Assembly: GCA_025656505.1 (NCBI GenBank)
Contig: JAHXHR010000004.1
Location: 1-55,903, forward strand
Reading direction: 5' to 3'
Source: Candidatus Thiodiazotropha sp. (ex Epidulcina cf. delphinae)
Lineage (GTDB): Bacteria; Pseudomonadota; Gammaproteobacteria; Chromatiales; Chromatiaceae
DNA length: 55,903 nucleotides
In this document: piece after piece, positions 5,870 to 29,654 of the stretch
Layout of the letters: the number at the start of each line of letters is the position of its first letter
Numbering within the stretch: the stretch's first letter is position 1
Notes under the pieces: generated by a model
Database searches by the model: none
Told to the model about the DNA's origin: nothing
What the model saw: only the letters and a program-made list of their open reading frames with translations
Program-made: the position numbers and the translations under genes

Positions 5870-6033
5870 CTCACCTGATCATCCCACGCTTGAGCACGCA
5901 CCAACCCCGGTTCGGGAATCAAACTAACCAAACCGGGGTTGAGTACATCCTCCTGTTCATCATCAAGGAATTGAGGCCCGCTTGTTTCTTGAGAAACAAG
6001 CAGCTCAATCGGCGGCTGATTATTCGGGGTCAT
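5866..6033 (-). CDS. Small 55-residue phage protein carrying a palindromic site
   Basis: A short frame starting MTPNNQPPIELLVSQETSG, rich in Pro, Glu and Asp and ending in AQAWDDQVR. Its TGA overlaps the ATG of the next gene (ATGA), and it fills an otherwise empty gap in a tightly packed operon, which supports coding. It encodes the peptide VSQET where the TGTTTC-YYRR-GAAACA palindrome (5983-5998) lies. No family was recognised. Confidence 0.55.
   Translation of the reverse strand: MTPNNQPPIELLVSQETSGPQFLDDEQEDVLNPGLVSLIPEPGLVRAQAWDDQVR
5983..5998. promoter_or_regulatory. TGTTTC-YYRR-GAAACA palindrome, site 1 (TTGTTTCTTGAGAAACAA context)
   Basis: Perfect arms with centre TTGA. It lies in the 55-residue gene, encoding VSQET on the minus strand. 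The flanking bases extend the palindrome to 20 bp (5981-6000). Confidence 0.85.
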
Positions 6034-6035
6034 AA

Positions 6036-6542
6036 TTAGACCCCGATATTGGCGCGGTATGCCTCCAGCTGATCCACGCCGCCAACACGGCGAACATAGT
6101 TCACCGTGTCGATCTCGATCAGCTCTTCACCGGCCACCTCCAGACGGTAATAGCGCAGACTGACGGTGACCTCATTGCTGATAGCCCCCTCGCCGCGTTT
6201 CCACTCTTGACCAGACAGCTGGTAAACCAGACCACGCATCTGCACCAATACCGGCACCTCATCGCCATTAGGCCGACGAATCGAACCGCGCGCGGTGAGT
6301 GGCGTCATGGTGTCACCCTCAGCACCGAACTGCTTCAGTACATCAAGCGGATAGGATGCAAACATCAGACCCGCATCCAGTTCAGACATCCCGCCAGACT
6401 GGATCTTGAAGTCAGCCGCACCACCTGGGGCGGTTTCCGTTTTCAGTTCAAGCGCCGGCAGTGTGATATCTGCCTCGCCCACATAGCCGCGCCCATCAAC
6501 GGACACGGAAAAGCCTACCAGCTTTTCAATATTCACTAGCAA
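6036..6542 (-). CDS. Major tail tube protein (P2 FII-like)
   Basis: This 168-residue protein matches the contractile-tail tube protein family (COG3498). It has LVGFSVSVDGRGYVGEADITLP near the start, then ALELKTETAPGGAADFKIQSGGMSELDAGLMF, and a C-terminal segment containing VNYVRRVGGVDQL, all typical of FII. It polymerises into the inner tube through which DNA passes. It follows the sheath gene, as in P2. The length is close to P2 FII (172). Confidence 0.93.
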   Translation of the reverse strand: MLVNIEKLVGFSVSVDGRGYVGEADITLPALELKTETAPGGAADFKIQSGGMSELDAGLMFASYPLDVLKQFGAEGDTMTPLTARGSIRRPNGDEVPVLVQMRGLVYQLSGQEWKRGEGAISNEVTVSLRYYRLEVAGEELIEIDTVNYVRRVGGVDQLEAYRANIGV

Positions 6543-6599
6543 TACTCCTCAAAGAGATTTTTTGTCGCGCCCTAAAACGGGCATGCAGAGAACTGGCGA

Positions 6600-7781
6600 C
6601 TATGCCGCCGGCAAGACCTCAACCAGATAGTCGTTGGTGAGTTGTGACCGGAACACAATATGCTCAGCCGGATAGGGTGGCGTGAAATCGAAATCGATGT
6701 ACACGATACCCTGTGAGATCTGATCTGGCGTGTTGAGTTCCGGGTCAGCCCACGCCTTACCGTTGATGATGGCTCCCTGGTTCTTCAGGTGGTTCATGTA
6801 GGCGTTAACCCCTTCAACCACATCCTCCAGATAGGTTTTGGTGATATTGCGATCCACCGCCCACATGTGAGCCACTTGCAGGGATTCGTTGATCATATCA
6901 GCGGTACGGCGCACACTGAGAAACGCCCACTTTGGATCACTGCTGCAAGTCCGGTTACCCCACAAACGGTAACCATCTTTATGAATGATCGTAGCAACTT
7001 CGTTTTCATTGAGATGATTTGCCCGCGCATTCACATCGCCCAGCGAGAAATCAACCGGTCTGTGTGTCCCAACGATGCCGTAGAGTTCCTGGTTGGACGG
7101 AGACCACCAAAAGCCACGCTCAGCATCGGATCGAGCGATCAAGCCGGCGACACGGGCTGAGGCAACCTGTGAGACCTCAGCATCAGCGACGGTATCCCAT
7201 ACCTTGACCTGCGGATCTACCACATAGACACGCGCCGAGCCGAACCCGTCCCGGTAGGCAATCGCGTCGGCATCATTGGTATTGGGGCCATCGGCAATGA
7301 TGACCGCACGCAACCGATCCGCAATCGCCAGCATCTCGGTCACAACCGCCGCCTGATCGGTGAACCCAGGGGCGATCAATATTCTTGGGATTGCATGGAC
7401 CGTGCCCTCAGAGGCCAGGAGCGCATGCACACCGGTATATTCACCAGTACCGGCATCAACACCACCGATCACATTGGATTGTGTTTCTGCGGCATCCACG
7501 CCCTCAGCAACACGAATCACAACCACCATCGCGCCGGCCTGATCAAAGATGCCGTCCAACATATCAGGCAAGGTGCCCAAACCGTTACCCACGGTATCCA
7601 GGCCAGCCGCTTCAAGCCGGCTGCCGGTTACCAGCACGGGCGTATTGAGCGGGAACTTTGCGGCATCCGCATCAGGGGCCGTGCCCACAATGCCAATGAT
7701 GGAACTTTTGACCGTTCTGATAGGGCGGTCACCTGTCTGGATCTCTTGAACCTCGACCCCGTGCAAATAAGCTAAAGGCAT
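6600..7781 (-). CDS. Tail sheath protein (P2 FI-like)
   Basis: This 393-residue protein has the length and features of the P2 FI contractile sheath (COG3497). It opens MPLAYLHGVEVQEIQTGDRPIRTV; its middle has a Rossmann-like domain (ILIAPGFTDQAAVV, RAVIIADGP); and near residue 270 it has GYRLWGNRTCSSDPKW, a conserved sheath signature. Its C-terminal domain ends with YPAEHIVFRSQLTNDYL. It forms the outer contractile cylinder of the tail. A gap of about 57 nt separates it from the tube gene. Confidence 0.95.
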   Translation of the reverse strand: MPLAYLHGVEVQEIQTGDRPIRTVKSSIIGIVGTAPDADAAKFPLNTPVLVTGSRLEAAGLDTVGNGLGTLPDMLDGIFDQAGAMVVVIRVAEGVDAAETQSNVIGGVDAGTGEYTGVHALLASEGTVHAIPRILIAPGFTDQAAVVTEMLAIADRLRAVIIADGPNTNDADAIAYRDGFGSARVYVVDPQVKVWDTVADAEVSQVASARVAGLIARSDAERGFWWSPSNQELYGIVGTHRPVDFSLGDVNARANHLNENEVATIIHKDGYRLWGNRTCSSDPKWAFLSVRRTADMINESLQVAHMWAVDRNITKTYLEDVVEGVNAYMNHLKNQGAIINGKAWADPELNTPDQISQGIVYIDFDFTPPYPAEHIVFRSQLTNDYLVEVLPAA

Positions 7782-7792
7782 TGTTTTCCCCC

Positions 7793-8428
7793 TTACTGGC
7801 TAGTGACTTGTTCGATCAGGTTGCCCGCCCGATCAACTAAATCATGATAGGTTTGGACGACTTCTTGCAGCGTTACTGCTGAGCCGACCTGCCGGAACGC
7901 TTGCGACTCAAAGCCATCGATGAGCGCGCGCGCAACGCGCAATTCACTGGCGCGCTGCAGCTGTAAAGCCGCCAGCTCCTCGGTTGACTCAGACAAGCCG
8001 CGTGAGGCCGCTTCAAGGCGCATAACCTCGACATCAGTTTCACTTGCCGTGCCACCGATTACACGCTCCGCTATGGCCGCTTTATCTGTCCAACCAGCAA
8101 CCTTGGCCGCGTCGGCAGATTCTGTGATCTCATTACGCACAAACTGACAGATTGCCGTGACCAAAGAGCGCGTATAGGACTGCATTTGGTCAACGTTACC
8201 GATTGGCGGGTTGCCCATCTGCTGCTGAATATTCCGGATTGGCGCCAGGCGCTGAGCGTTGATTTCATCCTCAATCGTCAGACCCGCAATCACTCCAGCC
8301 AAGACCCCATCATCCATGCCAGGAATGACGGCCTCACCCCGGAGACCTTTGTAAACTGGCGCGCGGTGCTGGTTTATTGCTGCCCACTCACGCAACGCCA
8401 AAAATTGTTCAAGAGTTACTTTTGCCAT
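7793..8428 (-). CDS. Hypothetical phage protein next to the sheath gene
   Basis: A 211-residue protein starting MAKVTLEQFLALREW. It is predominantly helical and alanine-rich, with long amphipathic stretches (about 65-140 and 150-205), and contains no membrane segment. No family was recognised. It lies between the probable fibre gene and the sheath gene, where P2-like phages keep tail fibre and fibre-chaperone genes, so a fibre-associated or assembly role is possible but not shown. Confidence 0.7.
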   Translation of the reverse strand: MAKVTLEQFLALREWAAINQHRAPVYKGLRGEAVIPGMDDGVLAGVIAGLTIEDEINAQRLAPIRNIQQQMGNPPIGNVDQMQSYTRSLVTAICQFVRNEITESADAAKVAGWTDKAAIAERVIGGTASETDVEVMRLEAASRGLSESTEELAALQLQRASELRVARALIDGFESQAFRQVGSAVTLQEVVQTYHDLVDRAGNLIEQVTSQ

Positions 8429-8443
8429 GTTTACCCCTACGCT

Positions 8444-9043
8444 TTATTTCTTCAGTTCAACCTGCATCCATTGCAGGCCGGGATAGGTGTCCCATGCGTT
8501 TGTGCTTGTATAAAGCTGAATCGAAAGCCGGTCCCCCTCCATCACAGGAATCCAGGGAGACATTACGCTTTCTTGCGGATAACCGGCCTGATTGTAGAGC
8601 GCCGTCGCGCCGGCACCCGCCAGCTCATGATTCACGTCATCATTGATACTGCTATTGATCGCCATCGCATAGGTGGCCGTATTGGTGCGATCAATTACCG
8701 TCGCGCCACTGATACGTGCGGAGCTGTACCCTGCAGGGACTACGATCTCATCATAGTTTCCGCCGCCCGGTATCGTTTCCGTGTCATCACGCACAATGGT
8801 GGTGAACTCAAGGTTCTGATAGGCCGCGACCGGCAGATCCTGAATGCCGTTGTGACGCAGAATAATGACATCACCTTCCGCATTTCCGCCTGCGATGGCT
8901 TCATGGAGCCACTTAATTGCATCAGCCAATTCCTTGGCGGTCTTGTTTGCGGGACCATCAAGGCCGCCAAGTACCTCATCCGTGATTTCGAGTAGATTGA
9001 ATTGCGCGCGCCATGTGGGAACAGGTGCGTATGGTAGTGCCAT
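8444..9043 (-). CDS. Putative tail fibre/receptor-binding protein
   Basis: A 199-residue protein. An N-terminal part including WRAQFNLLEITDEVLGG and a helical stretch (residues 35-55, KTAKELADAIKWLHEAI) is followed by a beta-rich C-terminal domain (about 80-199) with the C1q/TNF-like sequence flavour: VVPAGYSSARIS, WIPVMEGDRLSIQLY, LQWMQVELKK. Such domains form trimeric tips of tail fibres. It follows gpI, the P2 position for the fibre gene H. The fibre is short and host specificity cannot be inferred. Confidence 0.65.
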   Translation of the reverse strand: MALPYAPVPTWRAQFNLLEITDEVLGGLDGPANKTAKELADAIKWLHEAIAGGNAEGDVIILRHNGIQDLPVAAYQNLEFTTIVRDDTETIPGGGNYDEIVVPAGYSSARISGATVIDRTNTATYAMAINSSINDDVNHELAGAGATALYNQAGYPQESVMSPWIPVMEGDRLSIQLYTSTNAWDTYPGLQWMQVELKK

Positions 9044-9046
9044 GAT

Positions 9047-9763
9047 TTAACCTCTTTTCAGTGCGCCGTTAAATTGTGCCGTACCGTCATAGATCGGCGT
9101 GCATGTAGGGTTTCGGTGGCCGTATGTCTTCAGGCCGTTTGCGATGATCTGCCCATCAAAAAGACCCGCCGGAATTTCAGCGCCTGCCTGATAGAGCACA
9201 TCCAAAACTTGAACGATTGAGCCGTCATAGTTGTTCGATCCGTCATAGACATGCGTTGTGCGCGTCACCCGACGAAGACACGCCCGCACCGGCTTAACTC
9301 GATTGATTGCGGAAACGATGCGCGCCACTCGCTCAGCATCAGGCGATTCGGGTGCATTCAGTGACACCTCAAAGCAATACCAATCCGCCGCCTGCTCAGC
9401 GCCCCCATCAAAGCGCGAATCGCCGTTATAGAATGACTTCCTGTGTTCCGTGATCGTGGCATCTCCATAACCCGCAAGAGATAACACGCGCTTGATCGCC
9501 GCCGGCGTGCCTTTGATGGCATGCACCGCATGCGCATCAGCCACCACAGCCCTTTGTGTAGCCTCATCCCATTCCGGATCCCACTCATCCACCCCGAGCG
9601 TCCACGCCAGGTAGGGGAGCAGATCCAGGCGACAGGTCGCCGGGTTCCAAAGATTGGTCAGATCGTCAACATGACCAGGCGCAGCGGCCAGCAGATCCAA
9701 CGCCGCATCTGCCATGGTTTTCTGCAGCTGGGTGGCGTTATAAGGTAACAGCTCAGCACTCAT
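9047..9763 (-). CDS. Baseplate/tail protein I (P2 gpI-like)
   Basis: This 238-residue protein shows the gpI family N-terminus: AATxL-type helix, then CRLDLLPYLAWTLGVDEWDPEW near residue 47 and IKGTPAAIKRVLSLAGYGD near 83. The family forms baseplate wedges with gpJ in contractile tails. It overlaps gpJ by 4 nt. The extra C-terminal region (about 165-238) contains repeated YDGS/YDGT motifs and may serve as the fibre attachment segment. Confidence 0.9.
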   Translation of the reverse strand: MSAELLPYNATQLQKTMADAALDLLAAAPGHVDDLTNLWNPATCRLDLLPYLAWTLGVDEWDPEWDEATQRAVVADAHAVHAIKGTPAAIKRVLSLAGYGDATITEHRKSFYNGDSRFDGGAEQAADWYCFEVSLNAPESPDAERVARIVSAINRVKPVRACLRRVTRTTHVYDGSNNYDGSIVQVLDVLYQAGAEIPAGLFDGQIIANGLKTYGHRNPTCTPIYDGTAQFNGALKRG

Positions 9764-10602: not shown

Positions 10603-10605
10603 CGA

Positions 10606-11070
10606 TCAGAACTCCCAGACCAACTGATAGACATCCACTACAGGCATACGGATATACCGCAGACCGACACCGGTTAACGTACCGGTTAGGGAAAAATAAT
10701 CAACCGTTTCAGTATCAGAGGCATGGCGACCAGCGGCACCCCAGTGAACCATTCGATGAAATCCACCCCTCAGCTCTAGCCGAGGCGGGACCGGTAAGAA
10801 TTCGTCGATCTTTACGCCGCCGCCTAACTCCACATACCCAGCATGCGATTCATGCGAATCCACGAACATGCCGGCACCTGTGTTGAGGTAGTACCAGTCA
10901 CCAAATAACCGATGCAGCCCAACGCCCAACGGGACTTCGTTACAGCCACCACAATCGGAATGATGAATCGACCTTAGATTCAGGCGCATCTCATCCTGGA
11001 CGGTTATGTCAGCCGCCTCAAGCAAGAAGCTGGAACAAAGCGCGATCAAAAATATCACTATGCGTATCAC
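10606..11070 (-). CDS. Secreted beta-rich protein inserted in the baseplate operon
   Basis: A 154-residue protein with a clear signal peptide (residues 1-19, IVIFLIALCSSFLLEA|AD). The mature part is beta-rich with alternating aromatic/Gly segments (WYYLNTGAGMF, YVELGGGV, LELRGGFHRM) and ends in an aromatic residue (LVWEF), as many small outer-membrane barrels do. DCGGC near residue 41 holds a Cys pair. It resembles acyloxyacyl/PagL-type or other small barrels only in a general way, and no family is claimed. Its place between gpW and gpJ suggests a moron or envelope-modifying gene. Confidence 0.65.
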   Translation of the reverse strand: MIRIVIFLIALCSSFLLEAADITVQDEMRLNLRSIHHSDCGGCNEVPLGVGLHRLFGDWYYLNTGAGMFVDSHESHAGYVELGGGVKIDEFLPVPPRLELRGGFHRMVHWGAAGRHASDTETVDYFSLTGTLTGVGLRYIRMPVVDVYQLVWEF

Positions 11071-11570
11071 GGTATAACCTCCAAGATGGGTTTACTCTTC
11101 ATGGCGCGGACCATCGCGGCAGGCGAAGGAATGCGCGGAAACTTTGGCGGCGGCTGCCAACCCGCATGCCGATAGATTCGGGCATTGAATGACGAACAAA
11201 CCAGGCCGCCCTCATCGGCCGACGGCTTGAGACGAAACAAGTTAAATAACCCGATCCGGAACAGATCCAGCCAGTCATAACGGATCCGCTTTGCGGCAAA
11301 CTCGAACGCAGCGCGCCGGACTGTTTCTTGAGAAACAGGACAGCGGAACACATCGAAGGGGTGGCGATAACTCAGCAGCGGCACGATGCGCGGACCTGAC
11401 CAGTGCAGCTCAACCACGAAAGCGCCTGTACCAATACGCACCGCAATGGCCGTGTGGGTGTAAGGGGAACTAGTCACCCAACTCACCAGCCGCCAAAACC
11501 ACGCATCAGCCCGCTTGAGCGCAACCAAGTCGCCATCACCTATCTGGTGCTTGACTTGCTCATACTTCAT
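11067..11570 (-). CDS. Permuted papain-like (YiiX/NlpC-P60 type) hydrolase
   Basis: This 167-residue protein has the circularly permuted papain-fold pattern. GDLVALKR near residue 12 and SPYTHTAIAVR near 35 give the catalytic His. Later, GGLVCSSFNARIY near 123 gives the nucleophile Cys. Relatives cleave amide or ester bonds in cell-wall peptides or lipids. It overlaps the next gene (secreted beta-rich protein) by 4 nt, so the pair is co-translated. Placement in the baseplate operon suggests either a virion-associated wall hydrolase or an accessory gene. Confidence 0.75.
   Translation of the reverse strand: MKYEQVKHQIGDGDLVALKRADAWFWRLVSWVTSSPYTHTAIAVRIGTGAFVVELHWSGPRIVPLLSYRHPFDVFRCPVSQETVRRAAFEFAAKRIRYDWLDLFRIGLFNLFRLKPSADEGGLVCSSFNARIYRHAGWQPPPKFPRIPSPAAMVRAMKSKPILEVIP
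11322..11337. promoter_or_regulatory. TGTTTC-YYRR-GAAACA palindrome, site 2
   Basis: Centre TTGA, in the papain-like hydrolase gene, again encoding VSQET. The flanks C and G extend the palindrome to 18 bp. Confidence 0.85.
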
Positions 11571-11923: not shown

Positions 11924-11933
11924 CGAAGCGGGT

Positions 11934-13048: not shown

Positions 13049-13575
13049 TCCGTTACCTGCTCATAGTCACCCGCGTGGCCCGTGCCAACATCAGGCATCC
13101 AGCCCAGCTTGACGGTGTGCGGCACGATGCCACCACCCCACACCGATTCGCCCATAAAGACATCCTGCTCCCAAGCCACATACCAGGACTCGCACCCCTC
13201 AGCGCCGGGCTTGAACTCACCAGGCCCGGCCGTGATGGCTTCCGGATCACCGACAAGCTCACCCAAACCAAAACGGGCGCGCTTGACTAAGCGGAAAACG
13301 GCGGCGGCAAAATTCCTGACCTCGATATCAACACCCGGTGTCAGGTTGCTCAGCACACAATGGGCGGTGAAACTGCAACGCAAGGCGTCACGACCATCCC
13401 CCGCATCACGCCCCTCATCGATGCGTTCCAGCTCCAACAGCAGCGCCGGGGTATTGATCGTTTCATCATGCGCATCGGATCGATACGCCTCGACCGTATC
13501 AAGCCTGGCATCAAGGTGTGACTTGAAAAAACGCACCTGCGCATCGTGAACCGTTTTCAGATCACCGGCGTTCAT
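13045..13575 (-). CDS. Putative tail completion/terminator protein
   Basis: A 176-residue protein starting MNAGDLKTVHDAQVRFF. It contains TPALLLELERIDEGRD near residue 41 and VEVRNFAAAVFRLV near 81, which resembles gp37-like/DUF1834 or tail-terminator proteins at this genome position. In P2-like phages the corresponding genes (R and S) act in tail completion and head joining. It overlaps gpV and the minor tail protein Z gene at its ends. The assignment rests on position and general flavour. Confidence 0.6.
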   Translation of the reverse strand: MNAGDLKTVHDAQVRFFKSHLDARLDTVEAYRSDAHDETINTPALLLELERIDEGRDAGDGRDALRCSFTAHCVLSNLTPGVDIEVRNFAAAVFRLVKRARFGLGELVGDPEAITAGPGEFKPGAEGCESWYVAWEQDVFMGESVWGGGIVPHTVKLGWMPDVGTGHAGDYEQVTE

Positions 13576-14164
13576 GTTCTAGGGCATACTCCAGTTCGTG
13601 GGATAGGATCTTGCGGAACCGGTCCCGTGCAAATTGTTCAATACGCGCATCCAATTTCCCGGCGCTATCGTCCAGCGAAGCACCTAGCAGTTCGACCGGG
13701 AAACGACCGCGATTCAATGACCCGTGCGCGGCGCTGTATCGTCGGTGCTTCGGGTGATAACCGGGATGCCCTTCCTGTCGGTTGCGGGCCGACCTGATCC
13801 AGACCTTGGGTTGTGAGCCATACACCGAGCGGTAAAAGGTCCCTGCGTAGGTTTTCCCCTGCACACGAGCACCCGCTCGGTGGCGGCTCCAACTCACCCG
13901 CCCGGTTTCGTGTAGCGGTACTGGGTTTAGTCCAACCCATAACAGCCCGTCATTGTCACGCAAGGAGATATGCACGCGCTGATACTGCTTGAGTTTTGGA
14001 TGTGCCATACCACTATCACGGCCGACTTGGCGGAGTATCAGCGTGCGCAGTGCGTTAAGGGTTTTCCTGACCGCCCGCTTGATGGCTGTCTTGACAGCAC
14101 GGGAAGTCCGATCCAGGCCCAGGGTCAAATCATCGGTGATCAGGTCAAAATCCAGATCAATCAT
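13562..14164 (-). CDS. Minor tail protein Z-like (gpZ)
   Basis: A 200-residue basic protein. The N-terminal helix (TSRAVKTAIKRAVRKTLNALRTLI), LRQVGRDSGMAHPKLKQYQRV, a WVGLNPVPLHETG segment and a Arg/His-rich loop resemble the prophage minor tail protein Z family (PF06763). The role is at the head-tail junction or tail completion. The palindrome TGTTTCTCAAGAAACA (14165-14180) abuts its ATG, leaving no visible Shine-Dalgarno other than sequence in the palindrome. Confidence 0.7.
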   Translation of the reverse strand: MIDLDFDLITDDLTLGLDRTSRAVKTAIKRAVRKTLNALRTLILRQVGRDSGMAHPKLKQYQRVHISLRDNDGLLWVGLNPVPLHETGRVSWSRHRAGARVQGKTYAGTFYRSVYGSQPKVWIRSARNRQEGHPGYHPKHRRYSAAHGSLNRGRFPVELLGASLDDSAGKLDARIEQFARDRFRKILSHELEYALEHERR

Positions 14165-14180
14165 TGTTTCTCAAGAAACA
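14165..14180. promoter_or_regulatory. TGTTTC-YYRR-GAAACA palindrome, site 3 (intergenic)
   Basis: Centre TCAA. This is the only intergenic copy, filling the whole 16-nt gap between the FII-like gene and gpZ, directly before the gpZ ATG. Confidence 0.85.
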
Positions 14181-14522
14181 CTATTGCCACGGTGAATTCG
14201 TCGACGGCGGTGGAGATGGCGGGGCCAAAAACAACCAGGTGAAGCCGTTATCCATCGGATCAGTATCAACAAGAGCCCAGGTAACCCCCTCAACAATCAG
14301 CGGGTCGCCCTTGTTGAGCAACGATGCATCACAGGACCTGGCCAGTAGCTCGGAGCCATCCCGCCCAACCGTTAGACCCTCAGCGGCGCGGCGCTCACGG
14401 CCCAAGGTCACACGCTCACCGGTGTGTCTGATTGCGTACAGCTCCCCGAAGGGAGCCATCACTGGGATAGCGAATTCATCCGGGTCTAGCAGGTCAGCCA
14501 GGTCCGCATCATCGATGATCAT
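14181..14522 (-). CDS. Head-tail joining protein (lambda FII-like)
   Basis: A 113-residue protein. It opens MIIDDADLADLLDPDEFA and has a beta-rich core ending GVTWALVDTDPMDNGFTWLFL, the pattern of lambda gpFII-type head-tail attachment proteins. The family caps the head connector and receives the tail. It is located between the FI-like small gene and gpZ, as in lambda-type head modules joined to P2-type tails. Confidence 0.7.
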   Translation of the reverse strand: MIIDDADLADLLDPDEFAIPVMAPFGELYAIRHTGERVTLGRERRAAEGLTVGRDGSELLARSCDASLLNKGDPLIVEGVTWALVDTDPMDNGFTWLFLAPPSPPPSTNSPWQ

Positions 14523-18714: not shown

Positions 18715-20714
18715 CGGTTACGCCGCCGCTTGATTTTGAATCGCCCGCCCTGCTTTTCAGGCGGAACATCTTCGAATGTTTCTTGGGAAACACTGTCACT
18801 CATCGGGAACAACTCAACTTGCACGATGGACTGTTCGAGTACATCCCACTGGTCAGGGCGCATTAAATGGATGCGCCGCGCCCGCGCACTGTGTAAAGCG
18901 TAGACTTCGCAGTCTGTGGCCTCATTGCGCCGGCCGCTTTTAAGCTGCCAGACCTTCCGGTTTCTAATACGTCGATGCGGGGCTTTTGTCTCAGCCGTCA
19001 CCTGATCAAAATAATCAGCCCGTACATCGGCATAGATATGCATGTGTTCAGGGCCTGCCCCTTGCTTGGCCAAGCGTGGCGCTATCCAGTCCTTTGCCTT
19101 GTTGGTGCCCACGATGTAAACCTTGACGCCGTACTTGTCGGCCTTGGTTTGTTTCTTTGGGTTCCAATGGTCGACGCTGCGGATCTTCGGCGTTGTGAAA
19201 ATCTCGGGGTCTGTCTGTTCAGACGAACCCTTGACCGCCATGATCAATACATCCCGGTGTTTTTTACTGCGCGTGCGCACCCAGTGATAGACGGCATCGG
19301 AGCTTGTGCCGTCTGATGAGTCGATCGATACAGCCGACAAGCGGACACGCCCACCCCGCTTCAACTCAAATCCATTAGTGAACAGCAAGCTATCCAGCGT
19401 ATCCCACACGGGGTCTGTCTTTAACCGTGTGTCTTCCGCCGGCAGCTCACCCCAGTAGATCCCCCAGGATTCCTCACCGCGCCCCCAGGCACGCAGGATG
19501 ACCGCCAGGCGGTTATGCTGCACGTCAACACCGGCTGTCACCAGCAACCCACCCACCGGGACAGTTAACTCCGGGTAATCCATCGTTAACTCGCGGAGCG
19601 TATCCGCGTCCGCCTCTTCGCCCTTAAACTCATAAGGACGGCCCAGTTTCGAATTGACAAAAACGATCTTTGCGTTTTCGTCGCCTTGGGCGGCACGGTA
19701 TTCAGCCTTGAGGTGATCACGCACCAGATCAATAACGCCCGCGCCCGGCAGGCACGAATAAAGCTCGCTTAGCCCCATAAACCCCGCGACACCGTTATAG
19801 GGGGCGGTCGGCGTCCAACCACAATAGGGATCATTGTCAGCGACGGCCTGGCGCACTGTGTCGCGGATGTTTTCTTTACGCTGGTAATCATCCCAAGGTG
19901 CGCCGCAATGCGGACATACATAGACAGCGGTTTCAGGCAGCGCGCGCCCATAGACCGGGTGGTCCGGTCCTGAGTCCGCCGTCGACCAAACGACATTATC
20001 GAAATTCAAAACATGGCTATCACCGCAGCTATGACAGGTAACCGGCAACACCCGCTTGTCTGACTGCTCGATGTGCTCTTCAACACGGGACAAGCCAGCA
20101 ATCGAGGGCGTCCCACCCATCACGCGCTTGCCTTGACGAGCACGTTTCACGCGTTCCCAAAGCAACAGGATGGCGTCACCTTGCTCCTTTACGTTATCCT
20201 TGGCGTCATCGGGTTCCTCGACAATAACCAGTTTTGCTGGTGTCGACTTAACCTTGTGGATCGAGCCGGAACCACCCAGCTTTAAAAAACCGCCTGGAAA
20301 CTTTTTGAACAGAGAGCGGTTGCCCGACTTCCTGGACGTTGAAACATCTATCCGGTTCGCAAGCCTTGGTGAAGCGTTAACCGATGGTGTGAATTTCTCA
20401 TCCACGAATTCACGCGCCGCTTCATCGGCAGCGAACAGCATCACGATAGCGCCAGGGTCAAGGTCAATGCGTTTACCCAGAAACGCAATCAACCCAAACG
20501 TCCAGCCGATCTGTGCCGCCTTCATTGCGACAACCTCAGGAATGCCAGGATCATCCAGCGCCATAAATATGCCAAAAAAATATGGCGCGTAGTCGAGACT
20601 ATACAAGCCTGGAAGATCAGCGCCCTCTTCAGGGAGATAAAAATAATTTTCAGCCCACTCAATCGTCGGAATCAGTTTCGGCGGCACGAACTCCTTCGCC
20701 ACTCGCCTCAGCAT
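18711..20714 (-). CDS. Terminase large subunit (lambda GpA family)
   Basis: This 667-residue protein is a PF05876 terminase. It has an N-terminal ATPase domain (WAENYFYLPEEGADLPG; EVVAMKAAQIGWT as the Walker-A-like segment), VIVEEPDDA near the Walker B position, and a zinc-like CHSCGDSH...CPHCG cluster. The C-terminal nuclease domain contains AGVDVQHNRL and SIDSSDGTSSDAVY. It packages DNA into the head. The frame is open up to 20789, but the ATG at 20714 gives the family-typical start and a smaller overlap (55 nt) with the small subunit. The palindrome at 18777-18792 lies within the gene. Confidence 0.93.
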   Translation of the reverse strand: MLRRVAKEFVPPKLIPTIEWAENYFYLPEEGADLPGLYSLDYAPYFFGIFMALDDPGIPEVVAMKAAQIGWTFGLIAFLGKRIDLDPGAIVMLFAADEAAREFVDEKFTPSVNASPRLANRIDVSTSRKSGNRSLFKKFPGGFLKLGGSGSIHKVKSTPAKLVIVEEPDDAKDNVKEQGDAILLLWERVKRARQGKRVMGGTPSIAGLSRVEEHIEQSDKRVLPVTCHSCGDSHVLNFDNVVWSTADSGPDHPVYGRALPETAVYVCPHCGAPWDDYQRKENIRDTVRQAVADNDPYCGWTPTAPYNGVAGFMGLSELYSCLPGAGVIDLVRDHLKAEYRAAQGDENAKIVFVNSKLGRPYEFKGEEADADTLRELTMDYPELTVPVGGLLVTAGVDVQHNRLAVILRAWGRGEESWGIYWGELPAEDTRLKTDPVWDTLDSLLFTNGFELKRGGRVRLSAVSIDSSDGTSSDAVYHWVRTRSKKHRDVLIMAVKGSSEQTDPEIFTTPKIRSVDHWNPKKQTKADKYGVKVYIVGTNKAKDWIAPRLAKQGAGPEHMHIYADVRADYFDQVTAETKAPHRRIRNRKVWQLKSGRRNEATDCEVYALHSARARRIHLMRPDQWDVLEQSIVQVELFPMSDSVSQETFEDVPPEKQGGRFKIKRRRNR
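18777..18792. promoter_or_regulatory. TGTTTC-YYRR-GAAACA palindrome, site 4
   Basis: Centre TTGG, within the 3' end of the large terminase gene, encoding VSQET. Confidence 0.85.
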
Positions 20715-22623: not shown

Positions 22624-22636
22624 ATATCCCTATCTT

Positions 22637-24106
22637 TCATGCGGTTTCCCCCCGGAATGGATCATCCTCGATCATCTCCATGGGCCGCACATAAACACGT
22701 TGCTGTGTTTTTTTACCTGGTTTCAGCAGGTCAGGCAATAACTTTCTTTCCTTCCTCCATCCCACCGCTTTCATGATAGGGGCAATGCGATTCATATGCG
22801 CCCGCTGGATATACGGGGCATCCATGCCAATAGCTTCAGTCAGTAATTGATAGGAAGAATAGTATTGACCTGTATTGCAGGACAGGAATTCAAGTAATTT
22901 ATCTTCCCACGGGTCACGCTGTAATCGATCGTCTTGCAGATCCCCGATCAAGACCCGCTCGGTTTCATCAGAAACCCACCAATACTCACCGGATTGATAT
23001 AAAGACAGCGCTTCAGCCCATAATTGATCCCGGTTAACTCTCAACCAACTGACATCAACCTTTCTACACTGCACTGGCCAGTAGCGGCGGTTACCAGAAT
23101 AATCTTTAAGGTATTCATCTTGGTTTGTAGTGCCAATGAAAACAGTCTGGCGTAGAAAATCCTGAGCATTGTGTCCATAGCTGGGTCGGTAACGGTCACG
23201 CCGCTGAGAAAAGAATGCCTTGGCGGCTGTGGTCTCGGCTTTATTGAAGTTGTCCAGCTCGGCCAGCTCGGCACCCCACACGCCCTGGATGACCTGATAG
23301 GCGTCTTTCTCACCAATAGGCAAGGGTGCATCAGAAAACCAATCGCCAAACAAGATAGAGACCGCAGTTGACTTGCCCTTGCCCTGTTCGCCCTCAAGGA
23401 TTAATACCGTGTCCATCTTGCAGCCAGGCTGCATCACACGCGCTACTGCACCGATCAGGAACTTTCCACCGATTGCCGCTAAGTATCTCGTATGCTCCGA
23501 TGCATCAAAGACCTCTTTCAACCAAACATTGAGGCGAGACACCCCATCCCAGCGGAGCTTTTGTAAATAGTCTCGCACAGGATGGAAGCGGTGACGCTGA
23601 GACGCTATCAGTATGGCGTCAACGATCTCTGATCGCGGTGGTGGTGGCATTTTATAACAGCGATGAAACCAAGCCCGCAACCGGGCGGCGTCTGCGTCTG
23701 TCCATTCCCCCTCGGTCGCCTGCATGGGTGGCGCTTTCTGCATTGTGAGGCGATAAGAGAAGTCACAATAGGCTAAAACACCATCCCACCTTGGGTCATT
23801 CAATAAGATCGTTTCCAGGTTGGCCAAATGGGGTTTGATCATGCCGCCATCAGTACGATCAAGTCCCTTGAACCAGAATTGCTCTTTAATGGATTGCGCC
23901 GCGTCATCCTCATAGATATCCAGTGGCGGCTGGTTATCTGGTCCCATTTCCTTGTCAGGATGGTGTTTCTCGGGAAACAATCCCGAGTCACCACCTTCTG
24001 TACTGCGTTGCGCTTGACTCAGTGCGGCATCAATTTGTTTTTTAACAGCGCCTAGACCGGCAATGACATGCAGGTCGTTAAAATCCGCGGGCGGCCTATC
24101 ACTCAT
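22637..24106 (-). CDS. VapE-type replicative helicase/ATPase
   Basis: This 489-residue protein matches the virulence-associated E family (PF05272). It has DVWL-like SRLNVWLKEVFDA near residue 187, Walker A EGEQGKGKST near 238, WGAELAELDNF as Walker B near 276, RRDRYRPSYGHNAQDF, and the sensor FIGTTNQDEYLKDYSGNRRYWPV near 325. Such proteins work with a primase in phage DNA replication. It overlaps the primase gene by 4 nt. The palindrome at 23964-23979 lies in its N-terminal coding part. Confidence 0.9.
   Translation of the reverse strand: MSDRPPADFNDLHVIAGLGAVKKQIDAALSQAQRSTEGGDSGLFPEKHHPDKEMGPDNQPPLDIYEDDAAQSIKEQFWFKGLDRTDGGMIKPHLANLETILLNDPRWDGVLAYCDFSYRLTMQKAPPMQATEGEWTDADAARLRAWFHRCYKMPPPPRSEIVDAILIASQRHRFHPVRDYLQKLRWDGVSRLNVWLKEVFDASEHTRYLAAIGGKFLIGAVARVMQPGCKMDTVLILEGEQGKGKSTAVSILFGDWFSDAPLPIGEKDAYQVIQGVWGAELAELDNFNKAETTAAKAFFSQRRDRYRPSYGHNAQDFLRQTVFIGTTNQDEYLKDYSGNRRYWPVQCRKVDVSWLRVNRDQLWAEALSLYQSGEYWWVSDETERVLIGDLQDDRLQRDPWEDKLLEFLSCNTGQYYSSYQLLTEAIGMDAPYIQRAHMNRIAPIMKAVGWRKERKLLPDLLKPGKKTQQRVYVRPMEMIEDDPFRGETA
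23964..23979. promoter_or_regulatory. TGTTTC-YYRR-GAAACA palindrome, site 5
   Basis: Centre TCGG on the plus strand (CCGA on the minus), in the VapE-like gene, encoding LFPEKH. A weaker relative, GGTTTC-ATCA-GAAACC, lies at 22961-22976. Confidence 0.85.
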
Positions 24107-25474: not shown

Positions 25475-25665
25475 GTCACCAACCTCATATCGAGGTCCTG
25501 AGGGCCGTCCATCCTGGACAATCGGCCGTCAGGTCGCCACGCCGTGGCCCTCCACCACCCATCGCTTCCCAACCAAGCGCCAATAATATATTGCTCTGTT
25601 TGCTCCCATATGTGGGCTTTCTGACCGCTGCGGGTCTTAATGACTGTTGGGTCAATCAAGCTCAA
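25471..25665 (-). CDS. Hypothetical small phage protein
   Basis: A 64-residue protein starting MSLIDPTVIKTRSGQKAHIWEQ. It has a Trp-rich centre (GAWLGSDGWWRATAWRPDG) that looks like a small beta fold. It overlaps both neighbours by 4 nt (ATGA junctions), which supports coding. No family was recognised. Confidence 0.6.
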   Translation of the reverse strand: MSLIDPTVIKTRSGQKAHIWEQTEQYIIGAWLGSDGWWRATAWRPDGRLSRMDGPQDLDMRLVT

Positions 25666-26231: not shown

Positions 26232-26267
26232 TGTAATTCACTTGTCCTTGGCGTTCAGCCTCAATAC

Positions 26268-26741
26268 GTGCCCCATCATCCCGTTTCTAATAAACCACTC
26301 AGAGAATGTTTTTCGATCGTTCCAGAGCACATTGCTACCTATGGAGGAAAACAGAACTTTGGATGGGCGATCTTTGAAATTAAGCGCGTTTGGCTCGAAG
26401 CAGAGTTTCATGTCGTTTGGGAGCGAGAAGAAGGTCGACTTATAGACCTCACCCCCAGGGAAGCCCCGTTGAGTAAAATACTCTTTGTCCATGACCCAAA
26501 ACGGAAGTATGAAGGAATCCAGGTCGATAGCGTCTTTAAAGCCCTCACCAAGAACCCAAGCGTCAAACGTTTCATCGAGCTTGCCGGAGAACACTTCAGA
26601 GCTACGAACGAAGGCGATCTGGCTAAGATAAATACCGGCCCCATCATACAATGCAGCCCCGAACTCAAAGCGAGGATTCTCAAAATACAAAACGAGATGG
26701 ACGAGGTGAAACAGGCGATCTTCAGCGAATATGCTCGATAG
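26268..26741 (+). CDS. Conserved protein resembling SEC-C-associated hypothetical family
   Basis: A 157-residue plus-strand protein with a GTG start. The core NFGWAIFEIKRVWLEAEFHVVW followed by RLIDLTP and ILFVHDPKRKYEG fits, from memory, a family of bacterial proteins often linked to SEC-C metal-binding domains. The C-terminal part (about 100-157) is helical. It points against the surrounding early operon, like a moron expressed in the lysogen. A 182-residue frame on the opposite strand overlaps it fully, but this conserved pattern favours the plus strand. No Shine-Dalgarno is obvious. Confidence 0.65.
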   Translation: MPHHPVSNKPLRECFSIVPEHIATYGGKQNFGWAIFEIKRVWLEAEFHVVWEREEGRLIDLTPREAPLSKILFVHDPKRKYEGIQVDSVFKALTKNPSVKRFIELAGEHFRATNEGDLAKINTGPIIQCSPELKARILKIQNEMDEVKQAIFSEYAR

Positions 26742-26873
26742 CGCAGATGTGATACCTGGTGATCGCTTATTTATTAAGTGCAGCATTTGACTGACCCATT
26801 TTTTGATACCCCAACGTCATACACACACCTCCATCGATGCTCTAACCTGTCTGTGTAAGAAGGAGAACCCACC

Positions 26874-27091
26874 GTGCTACACTTCAGATCGCAAAACATG
26901 AAACACACCAACAATGGATTCCCCTATGAGCGAAATAAACCTGGAAGTCGCGGAAACTATCATCGCCCTGGACAAGGTTGCTCGAAGCTTTTCAAGCGCT
27001 TGCCGAAGATATCCCGCCAGACATGCCCGGCGTTGCGAGCAAGGTTCACAGTTGGACTCATTCTTTGAGAGGAGCAGACTCCAATCACTAA
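26874..27091 (+). pseudogene. Small gene with an apparent +1 frameshift
   Basis: AAGGAG precedes a GTG at 26874. A better protein start is ATG 26926 (MSEINLEVAETIIALDKVA). Its frame then degrades, while the +1 frame continues sensibly as EAFQALAEDIPPDMPGVASK and ends SLRGADSNH at TAA 27089-27091. Removing one base near 26983, at codon CGA, would join them into a roughly 54-residue protein. It could be a frameshifted gene, a sequencing error, or +1 recoding. Its 3' end lies in the 77-bp direct repeat. Confidence 0.45.
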
Positions 27092-27150
27092 GTTTCTTGC
27101 GCGCTGGGTCCAGCCAAGCGTCATCTCTTGGCACCCCCATCGCCTTAAAC
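27074..27150 (+). repeat. 77-bp direct repeat, copy 1
   Basis: This is about 96% identical to 27718-27794, starting GCAGACTCCAATCACTAAG. Both copies begin within a few bases of a plus-strand stop codon. The two copies bracket the divergent pair of small genes at 27145-27712. Confidence 0.85.
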
Positions 27151-27393
27151 CGCTCCTTTCCGCATGTCGGCCACGGCGACTTCAAAATTAATGATTCTTT
27201 GCACAGCAACAGCGTAGGGAGGAGATACATCTGTCAGGACCAACACACCGTCCCTCAAGGGGATACTACCGTCCCATTCATCATCATTGACTTCAATACA
27301 GCCAAAGTGCTCTTTGAGTTGTTCTGCTACCATGGTCTTACCGCAACCTTGCGGTCCGTAGACAACCACTGAGTTTTTAGGAGCTTTATTCAT
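27145..27393 (-). CDS. Minimal P-loop protein (Walker A only)
   Basis: An 82-residue protein. Residues 8-20 give a full Walker A motif (VVYGPQGCGKTMV), followed by HFGCIEVNDDEWDG and a hydrophobic strand GVLVLTDVSPP that may act as Walker B. The protein stops there, far short of a normal NTPase. AAGAGG lies 11 nt before the ATG. Its ATG overlaps that of the divergent plus-strand gene in CATG (27391-27394). Similar mini P-loop proteins occur in phages; the function is unknown. It shares GPQGxGKT with the protein at 32068. Confidence 0.65.
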   Translation of the reverse strand: MNKAPKNSVVVYGPQGCGKTMVAEQLKEHFGCIEVNDDEWDGSIPLRDGVLVLTDVSPPYAVAVQRIINFEVAVADMRKGAV

Positions 27394-27712
27394 GGACTTT
27401 CGATACCTCTTTTTTCCTTACTGCCTGTTGGAGCAACAAGATGGAAGTTATGCCGTTGTTAACCGTCGCTACAAACCCCTGGGGTTCACAACTCAGGATT
27501 GGGTTAACTATGAGGACCATCCGATTCTGATAACCACTGAAGGGCTTGGGCCTAAAACAATAAAAAAGCTTTCTTACAAGGGATCTACAGACTCTAGCGC
27601 CATATACCTTTATGGAAGCGGCCACGTCCCAACCTCTTCTAAGAAGAACATGGACGCATACCAGAAAAGATTGGCGCTGCTGGCAAAACTCAAAATTAAA
27701 CCGGTTAAATAA
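27392..27712 (+). CDS. Conserved hypothetical phage protein
   Basis: A 106-residue protein starting MDFRYLFFPYCLLEQQDGSYAVVNRRYKPLG. The aromatic N-terminus and VNRRYKPLGFTTQDWVNYE pattern look like a conserved phage family of unknown function. The C-terminus is lysine-rich (LAKLKIKPVK). AGGAG lies 8 nt upstream of the ATG, so the start is well supported. It is divergent from the mini P-loop gene. The second 77-bp repeat begins 6 nt after its stop. Confidence 0.7.
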   Translation: MDFRYLFFPYCLLEQQDGSYAVVNRRYKPLGFTTQDWVNYEDHPILITTEGLGPKTIKKLSYKGSTDSSAIYLYGSGHVPTSSKKNMDAYQKRLALLAKLKIKPVK

Positions 27713-27717
27713 GAGAA

Positions 27718-27794
27718 GCAGACTCCAATCACTAAGTTTCTTGCGCGTTGGGTCCAGCCAAGCGTCATCTCTTGGCACCCCAATCGCCTTAAGC
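27718..27794 (+). repeat. 77-bp direct repeat, copy 2
   Basis: This is the second copy of the repeat at 27074-27150. Differences are few single-base changes (for example C to T in GCGCGT and C to A in CCCCA). It ends about 36 nt before the next gene's ATG. Confidence 0.85.
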
Positions 27795-27830
27795 CACCCC
27801 TTCACATTCAATTCCTCACGAGGTTTCACT

Positions 27831-28052
27831 ATGGCACTCAAAGAAGTCGATCTGGAAACATTGCAGCAGCACGTAGACGCCTTAAATATCATTGTCAACC
27901 TGCTTCTCACAGAAATGTCGGAGAGCAACCCGGACAGCCTTAACCGGTTGCTTCAGCAGCTCCGAAAAATAATTGATACATCGCCGCAACTGCATCCCAC
28001 CCTTACATACATGACCTTTAGGGAGCTGATTGATGGCGGAAGCAGGCACTAA
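27831..28052 (+). CDS. Small helical protein near the immunity region
   Basis: A 73-residue protein starting MALKEVDLETLQQHVDALNIIV, almost entirely amphipathic helix, ending ELIDGGSRH. ACGAGG lies 8 nt upstream of the ATG. An opposite-strand frame of 75 residues overlaps it but is less protein-like. It faces against Cro-initiated transcription, so it may be silenced when the early operon is active. The function is unknown. Confidence 0.6.
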   Translation: MALKEVDLETLQQHVDALNIIVNLLLTEMSESNPDSLNRLLQQLRKIIDTSPQLHPTLTYMTFRELIDGGSRH

Positions 28053-28109
28053 CCCATGCTTCTCAGCATGAAACGTACCGGCCAAGATTACTTTAGGGTC
28101 GTAGTCCAT

Positions 28110-28319
28110 CTAATCGCTCCTCTCCATGAGATCAGGCCTGAGTTCTTTAGCAGTAACTTTCCCGTCAGAAGCAACCTCAATCGACCTACTCAATATCTTG
28201 CTTGGTCGCCGGAAACCTGATGCGATCTGTTTTAAATACACGACTTTTGTGCCGACTTTATCGGCTAGGCGTGCCACTTCGCTACCGCCATGGGCGGCTA
28301 TGTATGTTTTCATGTCCAT
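28110..28319 (-). CDS. Cro-like repressor of the YdaS family
   Basis: A 69-residue protein with a YdaS/Cro-type helix-turn-helix: GGSEVARLADKVGTKVVYLKQIASG, followed by KVTAKELRPDL, a typical YdaS ending. It is divergent from the CI gene, as Cro is in lambdoid switches. The promoter on the same strand puts the expected transcript start at about 28319, at or next to the ATG (28319 or 28313), so the mRNA may be leaderless. It probably represses CI or its own promoter through the TAGCA-N-TGCTA sites. Confidence 0.8.
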   Translation of the reverse strand: MDMKTYIAAHGGSEVARLADKVGTKVVYLKQIASGFRRPSKILSRSIEVASDGKVTAKELRPDLMERSD

Positions 28320-28325
28320 GCGGAA

Positions 28326-28353
28326 ATAATAGCAATGCTGCGATTAATGTCAA
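28326..28353 (-). promoter_or_regulatory. Early leftward promoter with operator
   Basis: On the minus strand TTGACA (28353-28348), a 16-nt spacer, and TATTAT (28331-28326). The operator ATAGCAATGCTGC (28329-28341 on the plus strand) covers the -10 and part of the spacer, so repressor binding should block polymerase. It drives the Cro-like gene and the early operon. Confidence 0.8.
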
Positions 28354-28374
28354 TAGTAAAGCTGTTTGATCTCG

Positions 28375-28387
28375 CTAGCAGCGCTAG
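28375..28387. promoter_or_regulatory. CI/Cro operator-like palindrome CTAGCAGCGCTAG
   Basis: This 13-bp palindrome lies 14 nt before the CI start codon and matches the operator at 29294 at 10 of 13 positions (shared core TAGCAGNGCTA). It is probably an autoregulatory site for the CI gene. No convincing -35/-10 for CI was identified. Confidence 0.6.
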
Positions 28388-28400
28388 TTAACTTCGTGGA

Positions 28401-29102
28401 ATGAACAAGAGACGCGACTTAACACCAGACGAAAAAACTGCCGCCGCTCGACTAAAGGCTATTTTTACTCGAAAAAAGAGAGAGCTAGGCTTTACCCAGG
28501 AAACCATTTCATATGCCGCCGGGTGGACATCGCCATCTGCTTTCGGCCAGTATGCAAATGGGGTTATCCCAATTAATCTAAATTCACTAATCCTGCTATC
28601 CAAGTTATTACAGGTCGATCCATCAGAAGTTTTCCCCCAATTAGCCGATCGCCTAATACCACGCAACGCTGACAATGAGAACGTTTTTAAAGGACCAGAG
28701 GTAAGAGGACTCGTGCCATTGATATCATGGGTCCAGGCAGGCGGTTGGCATGAAGTGGCGGACCTGTCTGATCGTGCTGATGCAGAACTTATATTGCCTT
28801 GCCCAGCCGGTCACGGGACACAGACATTTGCCCTACGGGTCGAAGGCGACTCCATGACTGCGCCACACGGAAAAAGCTACCCTGAGGGTTGTATCATTTT
28901 CGTAGATCCCGATCAGCGGGGTGGAGTAGTGAGTGGCAACCGAGTCATCGCTGAACTTAGCAGCGAAAACGCAGTGACTTTTAAGGTGTACATTGAGGAT
29001 GCTGGAAAGCGATTCCTGAAACCCCTTAACGCTCAATACCCTCCCATCACCGAGCAATTTAAAATCCTCGGCAAAGTCATTGGCAAGTGGGAATCAGAAT
29101 AA
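28401..29102 (+). CDS. CI-type repressor with S24 self-cleavage domain
   Basis: A 233-residue protein. The N-terminal HTH (residues about 15-70, FTQETISYAAGWTSPSAFGQYANG) is followed by an S24/LexA-like domain. That domain has the cleavage-site dipeptide Ala-Gly in ISWVQAGGW near residue 113, the Ser nucleophile in VEGDSMTAP near 150, and the general-base Lys in VTFKVYI near 197. This is a RecA-inducible lysogeny repressor. It is divergent from the Cro-like gene with operators on both sides. Confidence 0.93.
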   Translation: MNKRRDLTPDEKTAAARLKAIFTRKKRELGFTQETISYAAGWTSPSAFGQYANGVIPINLNSLILLSKLLQVDPSEVFPQLADRLIPRNADNENVFKGPEVRGLVPLISWVQAGGWHEVADLSDRADAELILPCPAGHGTQTFALRVEGDSMTAPHGKSYPEGCIIFVDPDQRGGVVSGNRVIAELSSENAVTFKVYIEDAGKRFLKPLNAQYPPITEQFKILGKVIGKWESE

Positions 29103-29280
29103 AGAGCGACTTCAAAATCGCCATACCTTAAAATAACTCCCCAGATTTTTCCATCATTGTGGTGGATCGCTGTCTGGCGTGAATAGGTCAATGATCTTCC
29201 GCTTCCTTTCCCAAAGCTCATAATTAGGCAACTCTAACAAAACAAACTTAGCTACGCAAAAATAAAATACAGCATAGCTA

Positions 29281-29309
29281 TTGACCGAGAAGGATAGCAG
29301 TGCTATTAT
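29281..29309 (+). promoter_or_regulatory. Early rightward promoter with perfect operator
   Basis: TTGACC (29281-29286), a 17-nt spacer and TATTAT (29304-29309). A perfect palindrome ATAGCA-G-TGCTAT (29294-29306) covers the end of the spacer and the start of the -10. The geometry mirrors the leftward promoter. It should drive the 98-residue gene, the antirepressor, the ParB-like gene and onward to int. Confidence 0.85.
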
Positions 29310-29357
29310 TTTTTTGTGGCGAAGTCATTGTTTTTACGTATAAGGATTGGTCAACCC

Positions 29358-29654
29358 ATGAAAAAAGATTTAGAAAACAACGGTCGGGAATGCAACCTGT
29401 TTCCCGAGAAACAGCCGGAGCTGGTCACGAGGCGCACCGTTTCCTTACACCCAGCGATCACACACCGGCAGATGCTCATCCTGCTGACGGCCATCGACGG
29501 CGAGATAAAACGCATCAGCAAAAATAACTATGTCATCCAGCCGCGCCACCCGGCTCACAGCAACATAAACATCGTTAAATTTCCCCACCATAAAAACCAG
29601 CTCGGCGCAACCGGACCGGCGTTACCCATGAGTAACGATATCCGAGAGGAATGA
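29358..29654 (+). CDS. Hypothetical early rightward protein
   Basis: A 98-residue protein from ATG 29358 (MKKDLENNGRECNLFPEKQPE); a GTG at 29316 would extend it by 14 residues. AAGGA lies 11 nt upstream. The middle (SLHPAITHRQMLILLTAIDGEIKRI) is helical; the end is basic. No family was recognised. It is the first gene after the operator-controlled promoter, and the palindrome at 29398-29413 lies in its 5' part, encoding LFPEKQ. Confidence 0.6.
   Translation: MKKDLENNGRECNLFPEKQPELVTRRTVSLHPAITHRQMLILLTAIDGEIKRISKNNYVIQPRHPAHSNINIVKFPHHKNQLGATGPALPMSNDIREE
29398..29413. promoter_or_regulatory. TGTTTC-YYRR-GAAACA palindrome, site 6
   Basis: Centre CCGA, identical to the minus-strand reading of site 5. 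It lies in the first gene of the rightward operon, encoding LFPEKQ. The flanks C and G extend it to 18 bp. Confidence 0.85.

Follow-up and report, generated by a model that had tools for sequence, protein, structure and literature searches.

What function might be served by one 16-bp palindrome that is repeated six times along a single prophage? The question is raised by a stretch of 55,903 nucleotides (the whole of which is termed ‘the window’ here) at positions 1 to 55,903 of contig JAHXHR010000004.1, from the genome assembly GCA_025656505.1 of the clam symbiont Candidatus Thiodiazotropha sp. (ex Epidulcina cf. delphinae), which carries an integrated phage together with adjoining host DNA. 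The same prophage encodes a ParB-family protein, and an initial annotation, made from the letters of the DNA without database searches, had proposed that the palindromes belong to it. Comparison with related genomes, viral contigs and published systems leads to the view, which we regard as probable, that the six palindromes are dispersed parS-like loading sites for the prophage’s own orphan ParB.

A dispersed palindrome confined to a prophage

A pattern scan of the window for TGTTTCYYRRGAAACA, a 16-bp palindrome, recovers six copies, at exactly the coordinates first reported (G063 is a related genome, described below):

5983..5998, site 1, TGTTTCTTGAGAAACA, in a 166-bp intergenic gap; 16/16 bases identical in G063
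11322..11337, site 2, within the gene at 11067-11570 (minus strand); 16/16 identical in G063
14165..14180, site 3, in a gap of exactly 16 bp between the genes at 14181-14522 and 13562-14164 (both minus strand)
18777..18792, site 4, at the 3' end of the terminase large subunit gene, near residue 666 of 692
23964..23979, site 5, close to the start of the helicase gene
29398..29413, site 6, in the first gene of a strand-coherent run leading to parB

Four of these lie within likely genes (11322, 18777, 23964 and 29398) and two, at 5983 and 14165, are intergenic, which lowers by one the count of five genic sites made originally. Site 3 constitutes the entire gap between its neighbours, and would provide the ribosome-binding region of the downstream gene. 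A seventh palindrome of the form GTTTC-4-GAAAC is found at 22962-22975 in the helicase gene, with ATCA at its centre and different outer bases; it may be due to chance.

The rarity that was claimed for the palindrome is borne out by 100 dinucleotide shuffles of the window, which contain no match, as is its absence from the 22 kb of adjoining host DNA, where none appears even at two mismatches or fewer (the prophage count remains six). A scan of the whole 3.43 Mb genome (G000), suggested at the outset as a check, finds TGTTTCYYRRGAAACA at 6 places, every one of them on the prophage contig. When one mismatch and any centre are allowed, the genome contains 13 places, versus 2 for a reversed control pattern; seven of the 13 are outside the prophage, including a parS-like one (C11:29369) and another (C26:32892) that has a YYRR centre and neighbouring genes that resemble, by eye, a trp operon.

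Conservation of the sites in related prophages

Among 194 genomes of the same family, a close and nearly full-length homologue of the ParB-family protein is present in three: the window’s own, G063 (55%) and G173 (52%). A fourth, G168, gives a partial match (E 2e-27). The exact site occurs in six of the 194, namely the same three and (once each) G034, G154 and G168; in the last of these the exact site and the ParB gene are on different contigs, with a single 14-bp core site on that of ParB. At one mismatch or fewer the prophages of G063 and G173 contain six and four sites, respectively, a motif scan of related prophages having been suggested as a check in the initial annotation.

The six sites of G063 correspond one for one to those of the window, with 89 of 96 bases identical, versus 526 of 767 alignment columns in their 60-bp flanks. 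Site 3 retains 14/16 bases between flanks that are 75% identical, and where divergence is greatest (flanks 46-63% identical) the three sites concerned retain 15/16 (site 4, flanks 63%), 13/16 (site 5, flanks 51%) and 15/16 (site 6, flanks 46%). The helicase genes of G063 and G173 each harbor a site in the same part as site 5. In G204, a contig from IMG/VR whose ParB is 36% identical, six sites are found at two mismatches or fewer with any centre. The structural genes of G173 and G204 are mostly different from those of the window, yet four and six sites are present. Because the coding sites fall in two reading frames, and the other sites are intergenic, the conserved unit is DNA rather than peptide, and conservation of an encoded peptide can be ruled out as the cause of the coding sites.

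Co-occurrence of the sites with a ParB gene

The dependence of the site upon the protein was examined in both directions. Two DNA-only patterns with 14 fixed bases, applied to IMG/VR, matched 44 and 89 stretches, which were reduced to a set of 115 distinct loci (including 80 of the 89 stretches of the second scan). Within the pieces examined, two of the 115 loci, L097 and L168, have another site besides the first (with no more than one mismatch), and they alone of the 115 match a ParB profile (E 8e-36 and 1e-32).

In the other direction, control pieces of at most about 22 kb each were collected through the window’s terminase (80 pieces, the best 80 of 81) and through its helicase (14). None of these 94 pieces matches the ParB profile, and across their 1.43 Mb the exact-arm GTTTCNNNNGAAAC is absent and GTTTCYYRRGAAAC at one mismatch occurs once. 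Eleven ParB contigs, by comparison, contain 35 exact-arm GTTTCNNNNGAAAC sites and 42 GTTTCYYRRGAAAC sites at one mismatch within 319 kb, and once the three that the motif itself had turned up (the window, G570 and G571) are set aside, the remaining eight, found through ParB alone, contain 19 and 25 within 213 kb. Since pieces of about 22 kb could miss a more distant ParB gene, whole contigs were also searched for the 50 longest of the 80 terminase loci (the other 30, and the 14 helicase loci, being left out); these hold one site, in one contig (G574), and no match to the ParB profile, in a search that had no positive control of its own, a similar profile having found the known gene in a separate search. 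A single ParB query gave no match among viral contigs, and alignments were needed to find the relatives. In each of G570, G571, G572 and G573, the only window gene with a BLAST match is ParB.

The core idea of the initial annotation is strongly supported by co-occurrence in both directions, by the ParB-less relatives and by the exclusion of CI (discussed below), and on these sequence comparisons we consider it very likely that site and protein are linked.

Palindrome families in other phages

Variovorax phage VarioGold (OP296522, L219) and Aval (OP131589, L220) are similar in layout and encode a ParB of the same fold on the cI side of the genome, but without the GTTTC site. A different 16-bp palindrome, GTGCANACGTNTGCAC-like, is present in six copies in VarioGold and five in Aval, one of them inside each parB. 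Aphanizomenon phage Yong-DA (ON073792.1, L221) has five dispersed GTTCAGACGTCTGAAC palindromes, at 3727, 15525, 19738, 31876 and 38138; its record is circular, encodes both ParA and ParB as well as mostly polysaccharide genes, and appears more plasmid-like than phage-like.

Three tests compared such families with simulated sequences. By exact-arm palindromes, the window and Yong-DA (and, with 6-bp arms, G570 and G571) are above the simulations, while VarioGold and Aval are not. By perfect 16-bp seeds, a test that is blind to the window’s own imperfect sites, the observed count and the simulation maximum are 6 and 3 for VarioGold, 5 and 2 for Aval, 5 and 1 for Yong-DA, and 6 and 5 for G570. An unsupervised palindrome search gives 6 against 2 for the window and for G063, 4 against 2 for G173, 5 against 2 for G204, 6 against 4 for VarioGold, 5 against 3 for Yong-DA, 5 against 5 for Aval, 6 against 7 for G570 and 4 against 4 for G571; in 46 real pieces that lack ParB the same search finds 1 or 2. 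Simulation support is therefore dependent on method, VarioGold being above in two of the three tests and Aval in the seed test only.

The ParB-family protein and its probable recognition of DNA

The protein to which the sites are assigned is encoded as follows:

30502..32046, plus strand, ParB-family protein of 514 amino acids, with an N-terminal helical, helix-turn-helix (HTH)-like domain, ParB_N with GERRYRA, HTH_ParB, and C-terminal helices

It exceeds the curated cut-offs of two Pfam models (PF02195, 43.6 bits over a cut-off of 26.3; PF17762, 32.5 over 22.6) and of the NCBIfam ParB model TIGR00180 (72.2 bits, cut-off 58.45), and falls far under that of the Noc family model TIGR04285 (60.7 bits, cut-off 315). 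HGERRYRA and DQPR, which we take to be motifs of a CTP pocket, are both present, and Q96, P97, R98, G136, E137 and R139 are invariant across eight homologues; Box III departs from the expected form (DNMGEP). By its family membership the protein would be expected to act as a sliding CTP clamp.

An AlphaFold model built from 8 sequences (mean pLDDT 77, pTM 0.56) consists of an N-terminal helical domain, a ParB nucleotide fold, an HTH region and C-terminal helices. The best Foldseek E-values are to ParB, Noc and KorB, and among the listed chains of these three the top target-normalised TM-score, 0.68, belongs to KorB of the KorB-KorA complex (8qa9_B); a small sulfiredoxin chain with the same nucleotide fold scores 0.71. 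The N-terminal domain in the relatives has weak matches only, to YdaS (E 0.0089) and HTH_23. A small P-loop gene at 32068-32403 was considered as a shared partner and set aside, its matches among 13 elements being itself and one window open reading frame (ORF; E 0.004).

The determinants of ParB specificity allow the sites to be compared with those of the host. An arginine at position 173 reads G at base 1 of the site, while position 201 governs base 6 (Jalal 2020, PMC7383237). The phage sites have G at base 1 and C or T at base 6; inspection by eye of all 35 exact-arm sites (22962 included) shows a pyrimidine at base 6 of each half-site in 34 of them, the exception being window 22962. A separate tally of base 6 used a hand list of 42 sites, without 22962 and without one-mismatch matches that lack a YYRR-like centre. 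Host parS, by contrast, has A at base 6 (two sites, on the same contig as host parB), and the residues of host ParB equivalent to 173 and 201 are R and G. In the phage homologues, with residues matched through their alignment and the offset of 28 between the two positions, the R173 equivalent is invariant (8/8) and the 201 equivalent is S in five of eight and G or A in three. The earlier description of the site as a hybrid of parS and Noc sequences is apt, base 1 being G as in parS and base 6 a pyrimidine (C in the Noc-binding site, NBS). The fit to the published code is partial; together with the pyrimidine at base 6, versus A in host parS, it suggests that the phage sites may be insulated from the host’s ParB.

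Gene order and a model of ParB action

The prophage looks like a contractile-tailed temperate phage. Its minus-strand genes include those for tail sheath, tape measure, portal, terminase, helicase and primase, while the plus strand carries an S24-type CI repressor, an AntA anti-repressor, the ParB-family gene and an integrase, beside tRNA-Met; about 1.3 kb of its left end, as judged from G063, is absent from the window. The features around cI and parB are:

28326..28353, minus strand, PR-like promoter TTGACA-16-TATTAT with one CI-operator-like palindrome (consensus matches only)
28401..29102, plus strand, CI-type repressor with S24 peptidase domain
29269..29309, plus strand, PL-like promoter TTGACC-17-TATTAT (promoter-like sequence 29281-29309) with two CI-operator-like palindromes (consensus matches only)
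29358..29654, plus strand, small gene containing site 6, with similar ORFs in G063 and G173
29676..30548, plus strand, AntA/AntB anti-repressor gene (Pfam and PHROG matches), with its true start likely near 29946
32725..33906, plus strand, tyrosine integrase, adjoining tRNA-Met (att copies in G063)
33908..33984, minus strand, tRNA-Met, the probable attachment site and right end of the prophage

The core of the CI-operator-like palindrome, AGCANTGCT, has two matches in the window and five in G063, where they form two clusters round cI (three before it and two after), a layout that we would liken to the operator arrangement of lambda. Because such palindromes are situated at PR and PL, CI appears to have operators of its own, distinct from the 16-mer sites. 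The parB gene is downstream of the rightward PL-like promoter, and from this layout it would be a CI-controlled, early gene. A 142-bp direct repeat, 80% identical, is located between a CII-like gene and cI (27017-27158 and 27661-27802). In G063, tRNA-Met ends are found near 2035, 11335 and 44849 of a reverse-complemented stretch of contig C7, the third copy lying beside the prophage, which suggests that another element has integrated at the same site.

On this basis the following course of events can be proposed. After induction or infection, ParB would be made from the CI-controlled early operon, bind the sites through its HTH domain, close into a CTP-dependent clamp and slide, and most of the phage genome could thus be coated from several well-spread sites. 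Feedback on its own operon may also occur, because every relative checked has a site within parB or upstream of it. The output would be control, insulation or protection of phage DNA, more likely than partition, because no ParA was found and an integrase is present. Organising, silencing, occlusion and spread-clamp functions, which had been put forward from the outset, are all plausible for such a protein.

The distribution of the sites has a bearing on this model. They are spaced more evenly than would be expected at random, both in the window (P 0.0037) and in G570 (P 0.0012), and six genomes combined give 1.8e-5, whereas G173, G204, G571 and G573 taken singly are not below 0.05; the test was exploratory and devised after the sites had been seen, and the window and G063 are not independent. 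A site at one mismatch or fewer is found within parB, or within about 1.6 kb upstream, in all 12 elements checked (no chance rate having been computed). The even spacing and the sites near parB suggest that ParB may both control its own operon and cover the genome broadly. From the number and spread of the sites, coating of the genome, rather than repression of one or two promoters, would stand about level with the competing accounts.

Competing explanations

Several results run counter to the assignment of the sites to the phage ParB. The background at one mismatch with any centre is considerable: 34 places across the genome of G063 (6 in the prophage; reversed control 19) and 17 in that of G173 (4 in the prophage; reversed control 11). 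Sites do occur without ParB, in G574 and in two prophages of G080, each of which has one CGTTTCCCGAGAAACG site at the same terminase position (C1 654351 and 2168926); ParB had been predicted near these, and the prediction failed, no ParB being found in the 60 kb around either. No more than 1 or 2 sites are present in four relatives, most of which are fragments, and the three homologues with G or A at position 201 still have a pyrimidine at base 6 of their sites. The unsupervised search ranks the motif first in G570 and G571, yet not above simulations, and fails to find it in G572, G573 and G443. Finally, phages 7-7-1 and Versailles (50 of 58 kb) encode a ParB-domain protein and show no palindrome family above simulation; the arrangement is therefore not universal to phage ParB-domain proteins.

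If the assignment is accepted, the strongest alternative to coating is a long-range silencer similar to KorB, in which the clamps chiefly repress their own PL operon and the lytic promoters, perhaps with a clamp-locking partner, and coating is incidental. KorB has the top score of the ParB-like chains named above, site 6 is about 90 bp 3' of the PL-like -10 box, a site is near or in parB throughout the 12 elements, and KorB can act on a promoter from as far as 1.5 kb (PMC11790492). All but one of the six window sites, however, are in or between late or replication genes, kilobases from both promoter-like sequences; sliding of ParB alone gives weak repression, according to the available text of the same paper; and no KorA-like partner was identified, no systematic search for one having been made. 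We consider this account possible, if somewhat doubtful. Less likely is an anti-silencer in the manner of VirB, a relative of ParB-type proteins that counters H-NS silencing (PMC10770331), whereby ParB, sliding from its sites, would clear the host’s xenogeneic silencers off phage DNA that is incoming or induced. A scatter of sites across the lytic region would be in keeping with such a role, but nothing ties them to silenced regions (a host silencer was not searched for).

That the palindromes are classical partition centromeres, similar to the SopB sites of N15 and served by a host ParA in trans, seems improbable. A ParB homologue and multiple 16-bp palindromes would be in keeping with it, as N15 SopB has four inverted repeat (IR) sites (PMC7205306), but the ParA-type Walker motif KGGxGK[T/S] was not found in any frame of 11 contigs or pieces, a regular-expression search of the ParB-family protein found no ParA-binding motif, and the element carries an integrase, with att repeats present in G063. 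It is more improbable still that the sites act as decoys or tethers for the host’s chromosomal ParB: their arms equal those of parS, but neither half has A at base 6 in 34 of the 35 exact-arm sites, host ParB has the R/G pair that accompanies A6 in host parS, and the sites follow the phage ParB and not that of the host. Least of all can they be regarded as CI operators or stoperators, an identity that was rejected on finding the separate AGCANTGCT palindromes at PR and PL: dispersed repressor sites do exist in a large group of mycobacteriophages (PMC9283540), but stoperators are asymmetric and oriented with transcription (PMC4351075) while the window sites are symmetric, and G173, G570, G571, G572 and G573 (some of them fragments) have sites and no BLAST match to the window’s CI.

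Comparison with known systems

The nearest known systems are KorB, phage N15 and the palindromes of phage Corndog. The OB operators of KorB are several, and scattered over RK2/RP4. KorB is itself a regulatory CTP clamp of the ParB fold on a mobile element (PMC11790492), as is predicted here; the operator sequence and the element are different, the window protein has an extra N-terminal helical domain, and its sites are mostly in the late region. The IR sites of N15 are said to be dispersed, in an account by Ravin and Lane of 1999. N15 shares with the window a temperate phage, a ParB homologue and a few palindromic sites (four, PMC7205306), but its prophage is a linear plasmid partitioned with SopA, whereas the window prophage has an integrase, no ParA that was found and a different palindrome. 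Bacillus Noc, with its NBS, is likewise an orphan relative of ParB that binds 16-bp sites with C at base 6 (PMC7383237, PMC8429893). It differs in that base 1 of the NBS is A rather than G, and the window protein fails the Noc model; moreover, the window ParB is encoded by a phage and its sites are confined to that phage, unlike those of Bacillus Noc.

Orphan proteins of the ParB-CTPase fold are common among phages and prophages; most of them lack a ParA-binding motif, and their role is described as open (PMC12704722). The window protein belongs with these; the survey, in its available text, gives no DNA target for them, while a cognate site is proposed here, and the accessible text of the open-licence literature yielded no description of dispersed sites that are cognate to phage proteins of this kind. 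A common class of phage ParB proteins would thereby gain a likely DNA target, with the same or a very similar word present in other phages that encode related proteins. A proposed site that is common to diverse phages, and nearly absent from ParB-less relatives, makes the role of phage ParB testable. It is conceivable, and put forward tentatively, that many temperate phages have a self-contained, ParA-free ParB system in which an early clamp, loaded at some four to seven sites at roughly regular intervals, covers the phage genome during lytic growth and keeps it distinct from host DNA; the site sequence would vary from protein to protein (GTTTCYYRRGAAAC here, GTGCANACGTNTGCAC in VarioGold and Aval) while remaining orthogonal to host parS.

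The same idea may also explain other dispersed phage palindromes, for example in the cluster O mycobacteriophages. Corndog has 34 dispersed 17-bp palindromes (TGTTCGGNNNCCGAACA), and phages of its cluster resemble the window prophage in that the palindromes are mostly away from promoters, a ParB-like protein (gp90) is encoded and parAB is absent (PMC4351075). The copies in Corndog are many more, the phage is not obviously temperate, and in the available text of that study the palindromes are left unexplained and are not linked to gp90, whereas the six palindromes of the window are here assigned to the ParB of the same prophage.

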